Part shown: in pieces, positions 14,073 to 44,947 of the stretch
Position numbering within the stretch: position 1 is the first letter of the stretch
Layout of the letters: every line of letters starts with the position of its first letter
Assembly: GCA_947452065.1 (NCBI GenBank)
Contig: CANGBB010000006.1
Location: 62,001-126,000 of the forward strand
DNA length: 64,000 bases
Reading direction: 5' to 3'
Source: Gammaproteobacteria bacterium
GTDB lineage: Bacteria > Pseudomonadota > Gammaproteobacteria > Steroidobacterales > Steroidobacteraceae
Made by a program: the position numbers and the translations under genes
Notes under the pieces: model-generated
The model's database searches: none
Told to the model about the DNA's origin: nothing
The model's input: only the letters and a program-made list of their open reading frames with translations

Positions 14073-15497
14073 ATGTCTCAGGCCTCCGTCGTTACTCGCT
14101 TCGCACCCAGTCCCACCGGCGAACTGCATCTGGGCAATGCCCGCACAGCCCTGTTCAATTACCTGCTGGCGCGTCGCCACGGCGGGCGCTTTGTCCTGCG
14201 GGTCGAGGATACCGACGCGGCCCGTTCCAGCGAGCAGCACATCGCCTCGCTGGTCGCCGACCTGCAGTGGCTGGGACTGCATTGGGAGACCGGTCCAGGT
14301 GCCGCGAACCCAGACCACGCCTGGCGTCAGGCTCTGCGCGGCAACGTATACGGGCCCTGCTATGAGCGGCTCATCGCCAGCGGGGCTGCCTATCCCTGCT
14401 ATTGCACGGCCACGGAGCTCGATCTGTCACGCCGCGCCCAGCTGGCCGCGGGTCGGCCACCGCGCTACGCCGGCACCTGCCGGAAACTGGACGAGGCCGG
14501 GCGCGCCCAGCGCGTCGCTGCCGGGCGCAAGGCAGCGCTGCGATTTGCAGTGCCGGCCGGGCAGGTGATCGAATTTGATGATGCCGTCCACGGGCCGCAG
14601 CGCCTCATCAGCGACGAGATCGGTGATTTCATCATCCGTCGCGAAGACGGTAGCAGCGCATTCTTTTTCTGCAACGCCATCGATGATGCGGAAATGGGCA
14701 TCACGCATCTGCTCCGTGGCGAGGATCATTTAAGCAACACGCCGCGCCAGTTACTGCTGCTCTCCGTGTTGGGGTTGCGAGCGCCGTCTTACGGACATGT
14801 ATCGCTCCTGACCGGCGATGACGGTGCGCCGCTGTCCAAGCGTCACGGTGCCACCACAGTGCGAGAGTTGCGCGAGGCCGGTTATGGCGCCAATGCCATC
14901 TGTAATCTGCTTTTCAGGCTCGGTCATAGCACGCCCGATACGGGGCTTTTAACCTTGCCGCAGATGGCAGCTGGCTTCGATATCGCGCATCTGCAGCGTG
15001 CAAGTGCTCATCTCGACCCCGTGCAGCTGCGTCATTGGCAGCGTGCCTGGCTGCATTCACTGGATGCCGCTCAGGCGCGCGACTGGCTGCTGCAATGGCT
15101 GCCGCCGCAGATCGAAGAGGACTCGCTCGACAACTTGCTGGCGGCCATTCGACCCAATGTGCTGCTGGCCAGTGATGTGCGTGAGTGGTACGCCATTCTT
15201 CGGGGCGACGCGCTGTCCTTTGATGCCGAGGCTGCCGAAGCGATTCGCAGCGCGGGCACCCGTTTTTTCGCAGCGGCCGCGGCCGCCGCCGTATCGCCGG
15301 AGCGCGCTCTGGATGCCGCCGCGCTGCGTAGTGCCACCGGCACCAAGGGCGCAGCCTTCTTTCGCCCGCTGCGCGCGGCCCTAACCGGGCAGCTCCATGG
15401 ACCGGAAATCGATCTACTGTTGCGCGCTCTGGGTGCTGAGCGTATTCGTGCCCGGCTCGCCGCCTGCGCCGAGGCGCTGCCGTCGGCACCGCAATGA
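14073..15497 (+). CDS. gltX: Glutamyl-tRNA synthetase
   Basis: Class I aminoacyl-tRNA synthetase that charges tRNA-Glu. The HIGH-region motif [13 protein letters not shown] starts near residue 9 and the KMSKS-like LSKRHG is near residue 250. A CYC...C set near residues 108-138 matches the zinc-binding arrangement of gammaproteobacterial GltX. With the ATG at 14073 the protein is 474 aa; upstream ATG (14046) or GTG (14001) starts would add residues not typical of the family. At this length it cannot be the short GluQ-RS. It overlaps cysS by four bases. Confidence 0.92.
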
Positions 15498-16981
15498 GCA
15501 CATCAACGAGCACTGCGATGAGTACACCCAATCCCTCGCTTCGCATCCACAATTCGCTGACCGGGCGCAAGGAGTCGCTGGTACCGCGTGTGCCGGGTCG
15601 CATCGGCATGTACGTCTGCGGCATCACTGTCTACGACTTCTGCCATGTCGGGCACGCACGCTTTCTGGTGGTATTCGACACCGTGCGGCGATACCTGCGT
15701 CACTGCGGTTATCAGGTGACCTATGTGCGCAATATCACCGACATCGATGACAAGATCATCCGGCGTGCAGCTGAAAACGGCGAGCCTATCGGCGCGCTGA
15801 CTGAACGATTCATCGGTGCCATGCATGATGACTGTGCCGCACTCGGTGTCGAGCCGCCGGATTTCGAGCCGCGCGCTACGCAACATGTGGAAGGGATGGT
15901 CGAACTTATCACTCGACTGATCGATCGTGGTCTGGCGTATGTCGCGGGCAACGGTGATGTGCTCTACAGCGTGAGCAAGTTCCCGGACTATGGGCGTCTG
16001 TCCGGCAAGAAACTGGAAGACCTGCGCGCGGGTGCCCGTGTCGAGGTGGATGACGCCAAGCGCGATCCACTGGATTTCGTGCTGTGGAAGCGCGCCAAGC
16101 CGGGCGAGCCGGCTTGGGCGACGCCCTGGGGAGAAGGTCGCCCCGGTTGGCATATCGAGTGCTCTGCGATGTCGCGGGCGCTGCTCGGAGAGCACTTCGA
16201 TATCCATGGTGGCGGCATGGACCTGAAATTTCCGCATCACGAGAACGAGATTGCACAAAGTTGCGGTGCCACAGGGGCGCACTTCGTCAATATCTGGATG
16301 CACAATGGCTTCGTCAACGTCGACAACGAGAAGATGTCGAAGTCTCTCGGTAATTTCTTCACGCTGCGCGACGTGCTGCCGACCCTGCGTCACCCGGAAG
16401 TGATGCGCGCCTTCCTGCTGGCCAGTCATTACCGCGCGCCGGTCAACTTCGCGCCGGTTCAATTGGAGCAAGCCGAGGCTTGGCTGACGCGGCTTTACAC
16501 GGCCGTGCGCGGACTGGACTCATCCGTGGTCGGCGCCACTGCAGCACCTGCGGGTGCCGCCACCGAGTTGCCGGAGGCGGCTGCGGCCCGGGCTCTGTTT
16601 GCCGCGGCGATGAATGACGACTTCAATACGCCTGAGGCCATGGCTGCATTGCAGACGCTGGCGCGCGAACTGAATACGCAGCGCGCGGCGGGAAATCTGG
16701 TCGCAGCCAGTCAGCTGGCCGCTGTGCTGCGCGACCTGTCTGGGTTGCTCGGCCTGATGCAGTTGCCAGCCGAGGAATGGTTCCGGCTCAGCAGCGGGGG
16801 CGCCAAGGATGCGGCCGTGATCATGAGCGAGAGTGATATCGAGGCTCGTATTGCGGATCGACTCGCTGCGCGTCAGCGCAAGGATTTTGCTGCAGCGGAC
16901 CGAATCCGGCAGGAGTTGGCCGACGCAGGCGTGCAGCTTGAGGACAAGCCCGGCGGCCTTACTGCTTGGCGCCGCGGCTGA
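15494..16981 (+). CDS. cysS: Cysteinyl-tRNA synthetase
   Basis: Charges tRNA-Cys. HVGHAR (HIGH motif) follows the zinc-ligand cysteine in [10 protein letters not shown], and KMSKSLGNF is intact. The DALR anticodon-binding part is at the C-terminus, ending in the usual [13 protein letters not shown] segment. Length 495 aa from the ATG overlapping the gltX stop (ATGA). A second ATG at 15518 would drop eight Ser/Thr-rich residues and fits the family start better; both are possible. Confidence 0.95.
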
Positions 16982-16990
16982 AAGTGTCAG

Positions 16991-18628
16991 CTATTGCTGA
17001 CGCCTGATGAGACGCTCAACAATTCCGGTCGAGCTGCAGTGTTCGGTAGCCAGCGGTGCGTTCTTGGCAGCGCGCTGTTTGTAGTGCTCGATATGATTGA
17101 GGATCTCGCGCAGTGCATCGATCGCGCCGCTGCTGTCCTCGATCGCAAGGCCAATCGCCCCAAGCGGCGGTAGCGGCCCCATCACAGCGTCCACGCGCGG
17201 GTTGATCGCGTCCTGCACGATCAGGCTGCGGCAATCAGCCGGAATGGGTATCAGTCGCCGGCACTGTTGCCGACCGCGCGGCGCCTCGAGCCACAGGCTT
17301 CGCGTGAACAGCGCCGCATCGCCGGGCCCGCAAAGGGTCAGTTCCACCTTGATCGAGCCCACGTCAGCGTCTACGAGGCCTGCAGTGAGCAGAATGCCGG
17401 TGGTGGCCGGCGGAATCTCAAAGCGGCTCCCATCCTGCGAAACCAATGGCTGCAGTCGGCCCGCTGCGGCGAGTGAGTTGGAGCATTCCTCGAGCCAGTC
17501 CTGATTCGCAGGAGCGATCTGCTCGGAGAGCCAGCTGTGCGCAGGCACCACAACCGGCACGCCCGCAACCAGCATTTCCAGCAGCACGCCGCTGCAGCGA
17601 TCGTGATAGCGACGTGCATCGTAGAGCAGCAGTCCGATATCGCTTCCGCAGACGAGCTCCGCATACTGCTGCTGATCCAGCGTGCCCGCTGAGCAATCCA
17701 CGGGGGCGGCGTCGGCTGTCAGAGGGTATTCGCGTGCCAGCTGGGCGATGCAGGCATCCAGCTCACTGCGCAGTGAGGCGCGTGCATTTTGCACCACCAG
17801 TTGTGCGCGGCCGGGCACGAAGGCTTCTTGCCACAGACTGTGCAGGAGCGAGGGGAGGATGGCGCGGTTCTTTTCACGCCGCGCGTGGCCCAGGCAGGCG
17901 ATGCGGGCGGGCTGCGGCTGCAATCGTAGCCGACGAAGGTCCGAAAATAAGGGATGCACCGGATAGGGCAGCACTTCGAAGTCAGCGACTTGCAACGCGC
18001 GATATTGATCGGCCAGCGGCTCGGTGGTGCACCACAGTGATAGCCGAATGCCGCGGCATTGCTTCAGCACATCGTGCAACGAGACCTGCATGGCCGTGGC
18101 GGCGGCCTTGCCTGCGGCCTGCAGTCGACGCCACTCCGGTTCGCGGTGAATCCCGAAATGGAGCTGCGCGTGCCAGTGCACCGCTGGCAATGTCGGAGTT
18201 GCGGCAACGAAAGCCGCCAGTCCGTGGAGGTCAAGCTCCGAGGCTGTCGGTAGGAACACGACATCACCCGCGGTCAGCGGTACCCGTCGGAAGAACTCGG
18301 TGCAGGCCTCCGCAAAGCGCTCGATATGCCGGCGACGCTGCCGCTGGCGCCACCGCGTCAGTAGGCTGCCGGTGAGACGGTGCAGCAGGCCACTGTGCGG
18401 TTGACGAGCCTGAGTGTCGAGTGTGTGCCGCGAGTAGGACACAGCGGGAAATACGGCATGCAATGGCCAGTGCGGCGCTAGCCCGGCGACTGCACTGAAA
18501 TCGCGATGCGTCCCCAGGGCTGGCGCGAACCCTGCTGCCTCCGCAGCCTGCAGCACGCTGACCGCGTACGGGTAATGGTGACCGCCCGTGTCGCGCAGAG
18601 AGTGATCGAGGAGGATAAATCTTGGCAC
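16991..18628 (-). CDS. GT-B-type glycosyltransferase with extra C-terminal domain
   Basis: 545 aa. The N-terminus (RFILLDHSLRDTGGHHYPYA) resembles GT-B glycosyltransferases. The donor-site-like segment GLLLYDARRYHDRCSGVLLEMLVAGVPVV (about residues 325-355) resembles the Glu-containing motif of family 1/4 enzymes, here with LLEML. After it comes roughly 150 residues with no family I recognise, ending near an Ala/Lys-rich tail. It has no signal peptide or transmembrane helix. It is the last gene of the leftward cassette with a GT2 enzyme, an SDR and a ColD-like dehydratase, so it probably adds a sugar to a surface glycan. Donor and acceptor are unknown. Confidence 0.68.
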   Translation of the reverse strand: MPRFILLDHSLRDTGGHHYPYAVSVLQAAEAAGFAPALGTHRDFSAVAGLAPHWPLHAVFPAVSYSRHTLDTQARQPHSGLLHRLTGSLLTRWRQRQRRRHIERFAEACTEFFRRVPLTAGDVVFLPTASELDLHGLAAFVAATPTLPAVHWHAQLHFGIHREPEWRRLQAAGKAAATAMQVSLHDVLKQCRGIRLSLWCTTEPLADQYRALQVADFEVLPYPVHPLFSDLRRLRLQPQPARIACLGHARREKNRAILPSLLHSLWQEAFVPGRAQLVVQNARASLRSELDACIAQLAREYPLTADAAPVDCSAGTLDQQQYAELVCGSDIGLLLYDARRYHDRCSGVLLEMLVAGVPVVVPAHSWLSEQIAPANQDWLEECSNSLAAAGRLQPLVSQDGSRFEIPPATTGILLTAGLVDADVGSIKVELTLCGPGDAALFTRSLWLEAPRGRQQCRRLIPIPADCRSLIVQDAINPRVDAVMGPLPPLGAIGLAIEDSSGAIDALREILNHIEHYKQRAAKNAPLATEHCSSTGIVERLIRRQQ

Positions 18629-18654
18629 GTGGCTCGCTACCGATAGTTCGATGG

Positions 18655-19494
18655 TCAGCCGCTGCTGCCGGTGGCGCCACGTTTGCCGGCAAGCTTCCAG
18701 AGACGGCGTGTCAGCCAGCCACCAATCGCGCCCGCCGGCGCGACGCTTCCTGGCTGCTTCAGGTAGTACTCTTTGGCCAGCGCATAGGCAGCCACCAGCG
18801 CTTTCATCTTGCCGCTCTGGTCAGCCTGAGTCGTAATGCTGGTCGGATGAGCGAGGAAGTGTGACAGCGGCACGGGCAGATGCGCGTAAGACGGATAGTC
18901 GAGCGTCGTCAGCAGGAACAGCAGCAGATCCTCGCCAACGCCCGAGTTCTTGCCGTAGATCCCCTTCGCCCCAGGCACTTCGGTGAGCAGATTTTTCAGC
19001 AGGTCTGAACGACGGAACAGTGCGCAGCCAGGGCTGATGGTCAGCTCTTCCCGCAGCAGGTGCTGAACGATTCTGCTGACCGGTTGAATGCCGGGAGGAT
19101 GACGCAATAGCAGTCGGCCCTGTTCTTCGCCGGGCGCATGCTGCAGCACCCGCGTGTAAACAAAGGCGATGTCGGCGCGCATCAGCGGCAATGTCCGCTC
19201 GACGTAGTCGGCATCAATCCAGTCATCGTCGTAGTTGATATGTACGAACTCGCCCTGCGCATGCTCGATGCCGTCGCGCCAGCAGGCGATGGGGCCGTGA
19301 TCCTCTTCGCGGCGCACATAGCGGATGCGCGTCCCATAACTCGCGGCCACCTCGGGTGTGGCATCCGTGCTGCCGTGGTCACACAGCACCACCTCGACCG
19401 GCACAGTCTGCGCGAGCGCCGTGTCGATAGCGCGACGCACGAGGTTGGCGCGATTGAAGGTCGGAATCACGATGGAGACAGTGGGGGCGCTCAT
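18655..19494 (-). CDS. Family 2 glycosyltransferase
   Basis: GT-A fold inverting glycosyltransferase of family 2. The nucleotide-binding start VSIVIPTFNRANLVRRAID and the metal-binding DDDWIDADY (DXD-like, near residue 92) are clear. Length 279 aa, no membrane segment. It overlaps the SDR gene by four bases (ATGA), and a 26-base gap separates it from the GT-B gene downstream, so it belongs to one transcription unit. Likely transfers a sugar onto a lipid-linked or O-antigen-type glycan; specificity cannot be read from sequence. Confidence 0.83.
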   Translation of the reverse strand: MSAPTVSIVIPTFNRANLVRRAIDTALAQTVPVEVVLCDHGSTDATPEVAASYGTRIRYVRREEDHGPIACWRDGIEHAQGEFVHINYDDDWIDADYVERTLPLMRADIAFVYTRVLQHAPGEEQGRLLLRHPPGIQPVSRIVQHLLREELTISPGCALFRRSDLLKNLLTEVPGAKGIYGKNSGVGEDLLLFLLTTLDYPSYAHLPVPLSHFLAHPTSITTQADQSGKMKALVAAYALAKEYYLKQPGSVAPAGAIGGWLTRRLWKLAGKRGATGSSG

Positions 19495-20369
19495 GTGTGC
19501 AGTCCTGCAAGATGGCGGCGGAGCAGGGTGGTGTCGGCGATCAGCGCCGCCGGCGGGTCGAGATCTTCGCCGACAACGGTGATGCGTCGACCACTCTGCC
19601 GTGCAATCGCCTCGGCTAGTTCGCGTACCGTCCAGCCGGTACCGCTGCCGATGTTGATGATGCCCGTGGCCCGTGACAGCGCCAACTGGAGAATCGCATC
19701 GACGACATCGCGGGCATCGAGAATGTCACGCACCGAGGAGGGGTTTCGAACGCTTAGCGTTGCGCCGTCTTCCAGCGCGGCAATGCGTTCGCGCAGGCTG
19801 GGCACCAGATACGGGGGTTGCTGCCGCGCATGTGAATAGCTGAACACGCGGCCCGCGCACCATGGTCGGCCCAGTTTGCCCAGCAGATCGCTCACCAGTC
19901 TTTCCGCTGCGAGTTTGGTGACGCCGTAATAGGTGGCCGGCACGGTCGCAGCATTCTCCGTCAGCGCCTCGGGTCGGCTCGTGGGCTGATAGACATGGCT
20001 GGTGGAGCACTGGAAGAACCAGCAGTCCGGTCGAGTCTTGATCATGGCGCGGCACAGGTTGAAGGTGCCGATCACATTGGTTTGGTAGGCCTGGAGCGGA
20101 TCGGCCTCGACCTGCGTCACCGGTACACATGCCGCAAAATGGAAGAGGTGGCGGCAGCGCAGAGTGCTGCACCAGTCGAGTAGGGCGTCGGCGTCATTGA
20201 TGTCGCCGGCGAAGGTCGCGACGCTGACTCCGCCGGCTTGCAGCCGCTCCGCCAGCAGCCCTCCGAGAACACCGCGGTGCCCAGTCAACGCCACTTGCTC
20301 GCCCCGCAGGGCGCCGAGATGGTGGAGTTCGGGCAGGAATGCAGGGCGCTCGAAGGGCGCCTGCTTCAT
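19491..20369 (-). CDS. Extended SDR: NAD(P)-dependent sugar epimerase/reductase
   Basis: 292 aa extended short-chain dehydrogenase. Rossmann motif TGHRGVLGG near residues 30-38, a catalytic serine region CSTSHVYQP, and the YYGVTK active-site Tyr/Lys are present. It overlaps both neighbours by four bases. Next to a ColD-type dehydratase, the simplest role is reduction, or epimerisation and reduction, of the 4-keto-3,6-dideoxy sugar nucleotide, the job of ColC in colitose synthesis. It could instead be an Rmd-type reductase or a GalE-type epimerase. The role is inference from context. Confidence 0.78.
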   Translation of the reverse strand: MKQAPFERPAFLPELHHLGALRGEQVALTGHRGVLGGLLAERLQAGGVSVATFAGDINDADALLDWCSTLRCRHLFHFAACVPVTQVEADPLQAYQTNVIGTFNLCRAMIKTRPDCWFFQCSTSHVYQPTSRPEALTENAATVPATYYGVTKLAAERLVSDLLGKLGRPWCAGRVFSYSHARQQPPYLVPSLRERIAALEDGATLSVRNPSSVRDILDARDVVDAILQLALSRATGIINIGSGTGWTVRELAEAIARQSGRRITVVGEDLDPPAALIADTTLLRRHLAGLHT

Positions 20370-21592
20370 CGCGAGTGCTCTTCGAGGCTGCGCAGAATGA
20401 GCTCGACCAATCCGTCGATGACACTCTGCGCCACCGGTTTGGCGTGGCAGCCGATGAACAGGCCGCGGTCGTGGACCCGCTGTGCGCCCTGAAACGGTCC
20501 CATGCTGATGTCGATGTCAAAGTGTTTGAGCGCGGGCTGCAGAGCCATGTTGCCCGAAACGATGGGTCGGGTGTCCACGCCTTGGTCGAGTAGGGCGCGC
20601 GTGAAACCGCGGTGATCAAGTTGTACCGACTCATCGACCAGGAAGGGGAATCCAAACCAGCATGGATCCAGCCCACGCGTCGCGGTCGGAAAGTGCAACT
20701 GGCCGCGCCAGCGCTCGTGAGCGGCAAAAGCCGCGCGGATGCGGGCCACATTGGTGCGACGATGGGCGTTCATCGTGTCCAAGCGACGCAACTGCTCAAG
20801 GCCGAACGCCGCCTGAATCTCCATCGGCCGCAGGTTGTAGCCAACATTGACGAACAGGAAGCGCGGATCGATATGACTGTTGTCGCGCTCCAGGGCCTCA
20901 CGATTGCTCTGTTCGCGGCTCCATCCATGGGCACGCAGGCACTTGAGCAGGTCGTAGTCCTCTTCTGTGCGCGCCAGCACCATGCCGCCCTCGATGGTCG
21001 TCATGTGATGCGAGAAATAGAAGCTGAAGGTGCCAAAAGTACCGATTGATCCCAGCGCACGGCCCTCGTAGGTGGTGCCCAGTGATTCGCAGGTGTCCTC
21101 GACCAGCAGCAGATCTTCTTCGGCGGCGATGGCCAGCAGCTCGCCCATCTCGGTCGAATTGCCCAGAACATGCACCATCATCAGTGCTTTGAGTTCGTGC
21201 TGCTTCAGGGTTGCCTTCAGTGCGGCCACCGACATGTTCAGCGTGAGTGGATCGACATCAATCAGCACCGGCACCAGACCGGTTTGCACGATCGGCCACA
21301 CGGAGGTCGACCAGCAGACCGCTGGCACGCCCACCTTGTCGCCGCGCTTTAGGTGCTTGCTGCGCAGCGGATTGGTCAGCGCGCTCATCGCCAGCAGGTT
21401 CGCTGACGAACCGGAGTTGACCATCACAGCGTGAGGGGCAGCGCAATGCCGCGCGAACTCCTGCTCGAAGCGGCGCACCTGCGCGCCCATCGTCAGTTGT
21501 CCGCTCAGCAGTGTGGAGATGCAGGAGAGGATCTCCGCGTTGTCGTAGCTCGAATCGACCAGCGGGAACTGGAGCTTTTCGTTGGCAGCCAT
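20366..21592 (-). CDS. ColD-like PLP-dependent sugar 3-dehydratase (active-site Lys replaced by His)
   Basis: Fold-type I PLP enzyme of the DegT/DnrJ/StrS family, 408 aa. Where aminotransferases of this family have the Schiff-base lysine, this protein has His195 in FSFYFSHHMTTIEGG. From memory that is the hallmark of ColD (GDP-4-keto-6-deoxymannose 3-dehydratase) and of E1-type dehydrases. Several stretches recall ColD: NSGSSANLL, VPAVCWSTSVWP, EDTCESLGT, RAHGWSR, GYNLRPMEIQ and WFGFPF. Expected reaction: glutamate-dependent removal of the 3-hydroxyl of a GDP-4-keto-6-deoxyhexose. First gene of a four-gene leftward operon. The substrate could be supplied by Gmd (42900-43994). Confidence 0.84.
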   Translation of the reverse strand: MAANEKLQFPLVDSSYDNAEILSCISTLLSGQLTMGAQVRRFEQEFARHCAAPHAVMVNSGSSANLLAMSALTNPLRSKHLKRGDKVGVPAVCWSTSVWPIVQTGLVPVLIDVDPLTLNMSVAALKATLKQHELKALMMVHVLGNSTEMGELLAIAAEEDLLLVEDTCESLGTTYEGRALGSIGTFGTFSFYFSHHMTTIEGGMVLARTEEDYDLLKCLRAHGWSREQSNREALERDNSHIDPRFLFVNVGYNLRPMEIQAAFGLEQLRRLDTMNAHRRTNVARIRAAFAAHERWRGQLHFPTATRGLDPCWFGFPFLVDESVQLDHRGFTRALLDQGVDTRPIVSGNMALQPALKHFDIDISMGPFQGAQRVHDRGLFIGCHAKPVAQSVIDGLVELILRSLEEHSR

Positions 21593-21666
21593 GTTTTACG
21601 GAGAGCCTTGCGAAACCTTTTAATCCGCCGATGGTACCTGCAGGCGCCGGAGGGCGCCATTGGAGC

Positions 21667-22515
21667 TCAATGCCTGCCGTAAGCCTCGAGTGTGTTCTGC
21701 ATCAGCATGGCCACAGTCATGGGTCCCGCACCGCCAGGAACCGGTGTGATCCAGCCGGCGCGAGTACGCGCGGCGGCAAACTCCACGTCACCGCACAGCT
21801 TCCCGTCCGCCAACCGATTGATACCCACGTCGATGACCACAGCGCCAGGCTTGATCCATTCACCGCGCACGAAGTTGGGTTTGCCGATCGCGGCTACGAC
21901 CAGATCGGCGCGAGCGATATGCGTGGGCAGATCGCGCGTACGGCTGTGACAAGTGGTCACCGTGGCACCCGCGATGGCCAGCTCCAGCGACATCGGCCGG
22001 CCCACGATGTTCGACTGACCGACGATCACTGCATCCATCCCGGCCGGGTCGATGCCCACAGCCTGCAGCATCTTCATCACACCGTAGGGTGTGCAGGGGC
22101 GCAGCAGGGGCTCGCGCTGAGCCAGCCGACCGAGGTTGTAGGGATGGAAGCCGTCGACATCCTTGGCCGGGTCGATGGCTTCGATGATCTGGCGCGAACG
22201 GATCTGGGCGGGCAGTGGCAACTGCACCAGAATGCCGTCGATGGCTGGATCGGCATTCAGTGTCGCGATCAACGCCAGCAGTTCGGACTCAGGCGTCGTC
22301 TCTGGCAGGTCATAGGCGCTGGAGAGGATGCCCGCTTCCTCGCAGGAGCGTCGCTTGTTGCGCACGTAAACCTGCGAAGCTGCCGAGTCGCCCACCATCA
22401 CCACAGCCAGCCCCGGGCGTCGTGCTCCACGGGCTGCCAGTGCATCGGTGCCGGCCCGTACTTCGCGCTTGATACCCTCTGCAATCGCCTTGCCGTCGAT
22501 CAGTTGTGCGCTCAT
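21667..22515 (-). CDS. folD: Methylenetetrahydrofolate dehydrogenase/cyclohydrolase
   Basis: Bifunctional enzyme interconverting methylene-, methenyl- and formyl-tetrahydrofolate. The active-site region [17 protein letters not shown] contains the conserved Tyr and Lys, and QLPLPAQI and [16 protein letters not shown] are family signatures. The start at 22515 gives [13 protein letters not shown] and 282 aa, the normal length; the frame is open upstream through the tRNA region but that is not coding. It lies upstream of, and co-directional with, the sugar cassette, 74 bases from its first gene. Confidence 0.95.
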
Positions 22516-22561
22516 GGCCCCTCGGATCCCTGTGCCAAAGAAACTATTGTCGCATGCTGGG

Positions 22562-22591
22562 TTGCGTGTCTGCCTTGCCAACCCGTATGAT
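22562..22591 (+). promoter_or_regulatory. Sigma-70-type promoter of the tRNA cluster
   Basis: TTGCGT (22562-22567), an 18-base spacer and TATGAT (22586-22591), followed by the GC-rich discriminator GCGCGCCCC. Such discriminators are typical of stringently controlled stable-RNA promoters. It lies about 44 bases upstream of tRNA-Pro. Confidence 0.5.
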
Positions 22592-22634
22592 GCGCGCCCC
22601 CGGCAACGTAGTGGACGTGGCGGGGGCGACCGGC

Positions 22635-22711
22635 CGGGGCATGGCGCAGTCTGGTAGCGCATCTGCTTTGGGAGCAGAGGGTCGCAGGTTCAAATCCTGC
22701 TGCCCCGACCA
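22635..22711 (+). tRNA. tRNA-Pro (anticodon UGG)
   Basis: 77 nt cloverleaf with acceptor CGGGGCA/TGCCCCG, anticodon loop TTTGGGA (TGG), T-loop GGTTCAAATCC and an encoded CCA end. First of four tandem tRNA genes. Confidence 0.95.
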
Positions 22712-22736
22712 ACCTGATACAGATGGCTCATTCGCT

Positions 22737-22813
22737 GCGCCCGTAGCTCAGTTGGATAGAGCACCGGCCTTCTAAGCCGGTGGTCGCAGGTTCGACTCCT
22801 GCCGGGCGCGCCA
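22737..22813 (+). tRNA. tRNA-Arg (anticodon UCU)
   Basis: 77 nt cloverleaf with acceptor GCGCCCG/CGGGCGC, anticodon loop CTTCTAA (TCT), T-loop GGTTCGACTCC and an encoded CCA end. It follows tRNA-Pro after 25 bases. Confidence 0.95.
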
Positions 22814-22825
22814 TGGTTTACGACG

Positions 22826-22901
22826 GTGGACGTAGCTCAGCTGGTAGAGTCCCGGATTGTGATTCCGGCCGTCGCGGGTTCGAGTCCCGTCGTCCACCCC
22901 A
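22826..22901 (+). tRNA. tRNA-His (anticodon GUG)
   Basis: Cloverleaf with acceptor GTGGACG/CGTCCAC, anticodon loop TTGTGAT (GTG) and an encoded CCA end. The base at 22825 is G and the discriminator is C, so the extra G-1 of tRNA-His is encoded in the gene, as in other bacteria. Confidence 0.95.
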
Positions 22902-22947
22902 CTCTCAGGAGTGGGTGCTTGATCATGGTAATCTGTCTGAAAAACAA

Positions 22948-23023
22948 GGGCCGTTAGCTCAGCTGGTAGAGCAGGAGACTCTTAATCTCTTGGTCGTAGG
23001 TTCGATCCCTACACGGCCCACCA
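22948..23023 (+). tRNA. tRNA-Lys (anticodon CUU)
   Basis: 76 nt cloverleaf with acceptor GGGCCGT/ACGGCCC, anticodon loop CTCTTAA (CTT), T-loop GGTTCGATCCC and an encoded CCA end. Last gene of the four-tRNA cluster. The CUU isoacceptor reads AAG, the favoured lysine codon in a GC-rich genome. Confidence 0.94.
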
Positions 23024-42750: not shown

Positions 42751-42899
42751 CGGCAGCGCTGATCTCGCTCAAAGCGCAGGCCGCTTGGGTTGAACTACGA
42801 TAAAATTCCAATTCTTGGATCTGTTTCGAATAAGCAAGCGACAGTCTTTCCGTCGATTGGATTTGCTGCGCGCGAACGGCCTGATGGAAGGGAATGCGC

Positions 42900-43994
42900 A
42901 TGAGCATGAGTAAGACTGCACTGATCACCGGCATCACCGGACAGGATGGCGCCTACCTGGCCGAATTCCTGCTTGGCAAAGGCTATGAGGTGCATGGCAT
43001 CAAGCGCCGGGCATCGTCTTTCAACACGGATCGCATCGATCACCTGTATGAGGATCCGCACCAGAAAGGCGTGCACATGCGCCTCCATTACGGGGATCTG
43101 ACCGACGCGACCAATCTGATCCGTATCGTTCAGCAGGTCAGACCCGACGAGATCTATAACCTGGCCGCACAGAGCCATGTGGCAGTTTCGTTCGAGACGC
43201 CGGAATACACTGCCAATTCGGACGCGCTGGGCACGCTGCGATTGCTGGAGGCGATCCGTATTTTAGGGCTCGAGAAGCAGACTCGCTTCTATCAGGCTTC
43301 GACCTCAGAGATGTTCGGCAAGGTGCAGGAAATTCCGCAGCGTGAGACGACTCCGTTCTATCCGCGCTCGCCCTATGGTGCGGCCAAGGTCTACGCCTAC
43401 TGGATCACGGTGAACTATCGCGAGGCCTACGGGATGTACGCCTGCAATGGCATCCTTTTCAACCACGAGTCGCCGATCCGCGGCGAGACGTTTGTGACGC
43501 GCAAGATCACTCGCGGGCTGGCCCGCATCAGCCAAGGCCTGGAGGATTGTCTGTATCTGGGCAATCTGGATTCACTGCGCGATTGGGGTCATGCCCGTGA
43601 CTACGTTGAGGCGCAGTGGCTGATGTTGCAGCAGCCGGTGGCCGATGATTTCGTCATCGCCACGGGTGAGCAGCATTCGGTGCGCGAATTTGTGGAGCTG
43701 GTCGGTGCGCGTCTCGGGATGCGCGTCGAGTGGCGTGGGAAGGGTGTGGCGGAAGAGGGTGTCGACGCCAACAGCGGCAAGACCGTGATCAAGGTGGACT
43801 CGCGATATTTCCGGCCCACTGAGGTGGATACTCTGCTGGGTGATCCCTCCAAGGCGCGCACCAAGCTCGGTTGGGTTCCCGCGACCAGTTTTGCTCAGCT
43901 CGTGGATGAGATGGTCGATGCTGACTTGGATCTTGCGCGGCGCGATTCGCTTATGAAACGCGAGGGCTTCAAGACCCTCCGTCATCGCGAATAG
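42900..43994 (+). CDS. gmd: GDP-mannose 4,6-dehydratase
   Basis: Makes GDP-4-keto-6-deoxymannose, the precursor of GDP-fucose, GDP-rhamnose, GDP-perosamine and GDP-colitose. Rossmann motif [20 protein letters not shown] and YGAAKVYA (Tyr/Lys) are intact. The start is set at ATG 42900 because GGAAGGGA at 42886-42893 gives proper spacing; ATG 42894 is too close, and ATG 42906 is also possible. Length 364 aa. It is followed by fcl. The 149 bases upstream are AT-richer than average, but I could not assign a promoter with confidence. Confidence 0.95.
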
Positions 43995-44017
43995 CGGGTT
44001 TCCACTGCGTGTCTGGT

Positions 44018-44947
44018 ATGCACAGCGAATCGCGAATCTTCGTCGCCGGCCACCGTGGATTGGTGGGCAGCGCCATCGTCCGTCGCCTGCGTGCTGCTGG
44101 ATTCAACAACCTGTTACTGACTGACCGATACACACTCGATCTCACGCGACAGTCTGATGTCGAGACCTATTTTTCCGAGCAGCGCCCGGAATACGTTTTT
44201 GATGCCGCGGCCAAGGTCGGCGGCATCCATGCCAACGACGCCTATCCGGCCGAGTTCATGCGCGACAATCTCGCCATTCAGACCAACCTGATCGAGGCGG
44301 CCTACCGCCACGGCACGCGCAAATTTCTCTTTCTCGGCTCCAGTTGCGTCTACCCCCGGATGGCGCCGCAGCCAATGAATGAGGACTGTTTGCTCACCGG
44401 TCTGCTCGAGGTCACTAACCAGTGGTATGCGGTGGCAAAGATTGCTGGCCTAAAAATGTGTCAGGCCTATCGGCGACAGTACGGTTTCAATGCCATTTCG
44501 CTGATGCCAACCAATCTCTACGGTCCCGGTGATAATTTTCACCCGCTCAACTCACATGTGCTCCCAGCGCTGCTGCGCAAGTTTCACGAAGCAAAAATGG
44601 CCGGTGAAAAGTCGGTCGAGGTGTGGGGAAGCGGGCGGCCGCGGCGCGAGTTCCTGCATGTGGATGACATGGCTGACGCCTGCGTTTTCCTGATGCAGCA
44701 CTATGATGACGAGCAGCTGATCAATATCGGCTGGGGTGAGGACGTCAGCATTGCCGAATTGGCAGCCCTGATCGGGCGAGTGGTGGGGTTTTCCGGTGAG
44801 CTGCACTTCGATGCCACGAAGCCGGATGGCACGCCGCGCAAGCTGCTCGACACCACGCGCCTCAAAGCGCTCGGCTGGAAGCCCCGGATCGCCTTGGAAG
44901 AGGGTATCCGCACCACCTACGAGTGGTATCGGTCGAAGAAGGAGTGA
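44018..44947 (+). CDS. fcl: GDP-L-fucose synthase
   Basis: Bifunctional 3,5-epimerase/4-reductase that converts GDP-4-keto-6-deoxymannose to GDP-L-fucose. Rossmann motif [13 protein letters not shown], serine region [14 protein letters not shown] and [12 protein letters not shown] (Tyr/Lys) match the family closely. The ATG at 44018 gives 309 aa; GTG 44009 adds three residues. Directly after gmd. ColC, the colitose enzyme, belongs to the same family, so product assignment to fucose is by closest match and not proven. Confidence 0.9.

Follow-up and report, generated by a model that had tools for sequence, protein, structure and literature searches.

We describe a four-gene cassette between cysS and folD in a 64,000-nucleotide window (the whole stretch of DNA analysed) of a Steroidobacteraceae genome, and judge with moderate confidence that its products synthesise a D-series 3,6-dideoxyhexose and transfer it. 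The cassette couples a ColD-like, PMP-dependent sugar 3-dehydratase to a predicted reductase of the SDR family without the residue pair expected of a C5-epimerase, and more tentatively we propose that this dehydratase-reductase pair, which it has in common with SAR11 bacteria, serves a GDP-linked route to a D-3,6-dideoxyhexose (GDP-D-tyvelose or its C4 epimer). The reading draws on sequence: enzyme families, catalytic residues, missing iron-sulphur cysteines, a missing epimerase pair, operon layout, the parallel in SAR11 and Gmd as the sole fitting source found; from these we infer the substrate, the reductase activity, the stereochemistry and the glycan target.

The four genes lie on the minus strand and are tightly packed, their open reading frames being joined by two 4-base overlaps and then separated by a 26-base gap. 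The lead gene (20366-21592, ATG start) encodes the 408-aa dehydratase and is followed by an extended SDR of 292 aa and STSHVY/YGVTK type (19491-20369), a family GT2 glycosyltransferase of 279 aa (18655-19494; Pfam PF00535, E 2e-26) and a 545-aa protein with a GTG start (16991-18628). Directly upstream is folD (21667-22662), and cysS (15494-16981) is directly downstream. On the plus strand and outside the operon, gmd (42894-43994; GDP-mannose 4,6-dehydratase, TIGR01472, 597 bits, cut-off 415) lies 21 kb away beside fcl (44009-44947; GDP-L-fucose synthase, NF047922, 511 bits, cut-off 500), which is 24 kb from the SDR gene. The layout is thus the one that the sequence-only reading had described, with frames that overlap or nearly touch and gmd beside fcl about 21 kb off. 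Cassette G+C is 62-64%, all four frames are intact and codon make-up is normal; since G+C and codon-position G+C are like those of the flanks, a recent foreign island, as judged by composition, was rejected. Across folD from the cassette, 22635-23023 holds four genes for tRNAs (Pro, Arg, His, Lys).

The dehydratase belongs to the Pfam family DegT_DnrJ_EryC1 (E 3e-75), and among solved structures it is closest to those of ColD (2gms, E 5e-76; 3b8x), with E1 next. Its active-site motif, SFYFSHHMTTIEGG (residues 190-203; 20984-21025, minus strand), contains His195, and both the sequence and a 126-row alignment bear out the earlier claim that this histidine stands at the position of the Schiff-base lysine: the column holds Lys in 10 rows of ordinary aminotransferases and His in the remaining 116. 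Histidine and lysine divide the 126-row tree once, in a single split with full support. This excludes the case, named beforehand as refuting, of a protein that clusters with lysine aminotransferases and carries His as a local error, and that candidate was rejected. Equally, it is extremely improbable that the cassette is decayed or silent, or that its first gene is a misread lysine aminotransferase, for which we found nothing in support: the frames are intact, the catalytic residues are kept, the codons are normal and the His/Lys split is single.

Trp94, Asp166, Glu169, His195 and Asn253, which are invariant in the ColD clade and which we take as catalytic or cofactor-binding residues from the alignment, are all kept in the window dehydratase. 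The three columns that hold the iron-sulphur cysteines of E1 show Gln, Asn and a gap, and the protein scores 283 bits against the E1/RfbH model NF011936 (cut-off 423). Together with the published mechanism of these dehydratases (review PMC8987622), the kept residues and the absence of the E1 cysteines predict a ColD-like hydrolytic route that works without an iron-sulphur reductase. The 408-aa protein is accordingly classed, by its sequence, as a putative PMP-type sugar 3-dehydratase of ColD type, most likely of the GDP-mannose branch.

E1 (RfbH), the CDP-4-keto-6-deoxyglucose 3-dehydratase, belongs to this superfamily and is itself a histidine dehydratase, and the route it serves also ends with a C4 reduction by an SDR. 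An E1-type system acting on CDP-glucose, with paratose, abequose or tyvelose as its product, would therefore resemble the cassette in outline, and in two congeners genes for CDP-glucose 4,6-dehydratase do occupy the corresponding interval. We nevertheless regard this CDP branch as very unlikely and rejected it: E1 depends on a [2Fe-2S] cluster together with a reductase, whereas the window enzyme is devoid of the cysteines; the E1/RfbH rows form a clade of their own inside the His side of the tree, outside which the window dehydratase falls; and its own genome has no CDP-glucose 4,6-dehydratase above cut-off.

A tree with ColD, E1 and StrS aminotransferases had been proposed as a check, and it places the protein on the His side and apart from E1, leaving membership of the ColD clade less clear. 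In the best trees the window dehydratase lies outside the 59-row ColD clade, which comprises gmd-colC-colD cassettes, and groups with 14 proteins of Pelagibacterales (SAR11), with a support of 98 in the 126-row tree and of 97/97 in a careful 61-row tree. The window sequence sits on a long branch, its nearest relatives are at most 47% identical, and its placement with the ColD clade is not rejected by an AU test (p 0.12). The enzyme shares with ColD of E. coli O55, a GDP-4-keto-6-deoxymannose 3-dehydratase, the PLP/PMP DegT fold, the histidine for lysine, the lack of iron-sulphur cysteines and the catalytic residues, but differs in its position in the best tree, in a neighbouring SDR that is not ColC and in having gmd outside the operon. 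Within the dehydratase tree, a Colwellia protein is sister of E. coli ColD.

The partner SDR matches the Pfam families GDP_Man_Dehyd/Epimerase and has both GxxGxxG and YxxxK. For comparison, the E. coli O55 colC and colD sequences were taken from CB9615, where the two genes overlap. ColC and Fcl have in common a Cys/His pair (Cys105/His176 in ColC, Cys109/His179 in Fcl), which, following established GDP-fucose synthase chemistry, we take to be the residues of C5 epimerisation. In the multiple alignment the window SDR has neither: its STSHVY places His at the Cys position, and Tyr stands at the His position. SDRs of SAR11 likewise show His for the Cys, and for the His mostly Phe or Tyr; multiple alignment was used here, pairwise residue calls being noisy for these proteins. 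Where the dehydratase belongs to the 59-row ColD clade, most of the SDRs next to it are ColC-like and have both residues. The ColC-like partner has Ala in place of the epimerase Cys in the Actinomycetota loci L104, L120, L127 and L128.

Rmd (2pk3), a GDP-4-keto-6-deoxy-D-mannose reductase, ranks first for the window SDR both by profile and by fold, where its Z of 30.4 compares with 29.3 for the next match, with small margins and UDP-glucose 4-epimerases close behind. Like the reaction proposed here, that of Rmd reduces C4 without inverting C5; the two Rmd structures compared (2pk3, 6x3b) are only about 24-25% identical to the SDR. No GDP-fucose synthase appears among the matches listed in the fold search, which by itself shows nothing. 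The sequence of an SDR is a poor guide to its specificity, and the argument from the missing epimerase pair leans on the known chemistry of GDP-fucose synthase; with this proviso, the protein is probably a C4 ketoreductase that has no C5-epimerase pair.

Because this SDR is devoid of the Cys/His pair, the cassette is not expected to yield colitose by the usual route. The sequence-only reading had taken the first gene for a ColD-type dehydratase on the route to GDP-colitose; the ColD-type histidine dehydratase, sharing its operon with an SDR and with genes of glycosyltransferase type, stands, and colitose as the product is not supported, given the residues of the adjacent SDR and a best tree in which the ColD clade does not include the dehydratase. 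Colitose could still arise if the dehydratase made GDP-4-keto-3,6-dideoxymannose and Fcl, which uses the same intermediate as the dehydratase, turned that product into GDP-L-colitose by epimerisation and reduction, the cassette SDR acting in another step. Fcl is homologous to ColC and keeps the Cys/His pair, so that it could substitute for ColC, and both the overlap of colC and colD in E. coli O55 and the AU result lend this some weight. We consider it rather unlikely, since it would leave the overlapping SDR without a clear role, yet the same pair is found in SAR11, and since Fcl sits with gmd as in the usual GDP-fucose pair.

Support for the link to SAR11 that is separate from the tree comes from gene order. 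An overlapping SDR of the window type is present in 8 of the 14 SAR11-clade loci (L052, L053, L055, L057, L059, L060, L063 and L071), seven of them by a strict motif and L071 read as LSTSHVF; among loci L052-L135, the strict motif occurs in no locus outside the SAR11 clade. A different gene adjoins the dehydratase in L069, L086, L066 and L054, no gene was seen next to it in L065, and in L075 the SDR is present elsewhere in the locus. The order in L057 is gmd-dehydratase-SDR. The SAR11 pairs thus resemble that of the window in a sister-group dehydratase and an overlapping SDR without the Cys/His pair; they differ in the active-site motif (SHQITSGEGG against SHHMTTIEGG) and in SDRs that are only 21-32% identical to that of the window.

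With respect to substrate, the genome (96% complete) yielded a single full Gmd, encoded at 42894-43994, and no other neutral-hexose 4,6-dehydratase. Other SDR-type sources identified with NCBIfam (a TviC-like epimerase, an ArnA-like UDP-pentose enzyme and PseB) are all UDP-sugar enzymes. As Gmd is the only fitting source found, GDP-4-keto-6-deoxymannose is, by elimination, the likely substrate of the dehydratase. A different 4-keto sugar, such as the product of PseB, might instead be converted to another deoxysugar; PseB is encoded in the genome, and nearest relatives at or below 47% identity leave specificity loose. Relatives across the SHH group, however, repeatedly adjoin gmd, and we deem such a substrate unlikely.

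In the D-3,6-dideoxyhexose pathway that we favour, Gmd would convert GDP-D-mannose to GDP-4-keto-6-deoxy-D-mannose, from which the 408-aa enzyme, using PMP and His195 as ColD does, would expel the C3 hydroxyl to give GDP-4-keto-3,6-dideoxy-D-mannose, with glutamate regenerating PMP. The overlapping SDR would then reduce C4 without inversion at C5, yielding a GDP-3,6-dideoxy-D-hexose of D-arabino configuration (tyvelose) or its C4 epimer, and the GT2 and GT-B-like proteins may attach this sugar to a surface glycan.

No Pfam or NCBIfam family matches the 545-aa protein. Its structural model is of low confidence (pLDDT 52), and the proteins matched by Foldseek include GT-B enzymes, at probability 1.00 with low TM; from these weak fold matches, it is probably a GT-B glycosyltransferase. 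The one homologue found within the genus, 45-50% identical, occupies the same slot in G007, and a 65% homologue of the GT2 lies beside cysS in one congener, G012. Although the cassette resembles its flanks in composition, close relatives of the dehydratase are missing from all 14 congeners.

Comparison with congeners (loci L172, L173, L178, L179 and L181) delimits the cysS-folD interval (16982-21666, unstranded) as a slot for deoxysugar/glycan genes that varies across the genus: the gap, or its cysS side where a contig ends, holds different glycan genes in different congeners. G001 has a glucose-1-phosphate cytidylyltransferase and a CDP-glucose 4,6-dehydratase; G003 combines a Gmd-like gene with a nucleotidyltransferase, a CDP-glucose 4,6-dehydratase and a gene of the DegT family; in G014 a methyltransferase is found with a Gmd-like gene; and in G007 and G012 the homologues of the 545-aa protein and of the GT2, respectively, are each accompanied by a Gmd-like gene. 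Such variability, with glycan genes filling the slot, makes a glycan role for the cassette more likely and names no glycan. The Gmd-like genes that adjoin cysS in G003, G007, G012 and G014 form a second, shorter subfamily, scoring 311-332 bits against the gmd cut-off of 415.

ColD-type cassettes are widespread across phyla, archaea included, and one outside the enterics is no novelty. The LOS of Colwellia is chemically known to contain colitose (PMC8914368), and a published survey of predicted pathways remarks, as an exception, on L-colitose being absent from TACK archaea (PMC7725333). ColD-like genes are present in the archaeal loci L132, L067 and L070. A Haladaptatus plasmid carries, in this order, gmd, an SDR that lacks the Cys/His pair and a dehydratase, and a ColD-like protein, labelled hypothetical in the records, is encoded by Synechococcus phage ACG-2014f genomes (KJ019105, KJ019066 and others).

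A search of the literature returned nothing on point for a GDP-tyvelose route or for a cysS-folD glycan slot. The routes known to us are those of the CDP-linked D-3,6-dideoxyhexoses and of GDP-L-colitose only, and we know of no description of a ColD-type dehydratase paired with a non-ColC SDR. If the proposed reading is correct, a pair that makes a GDP-3,6-dideoxy-D-hexose would constitute an added nucleotide-sugar route, and a ColD-like gene alone would not predict colitose, the partner SDR being what decides. It would also name a sugar to seek in the Pelagibacterales, whose surface glycans are, to our knowledge, little known.
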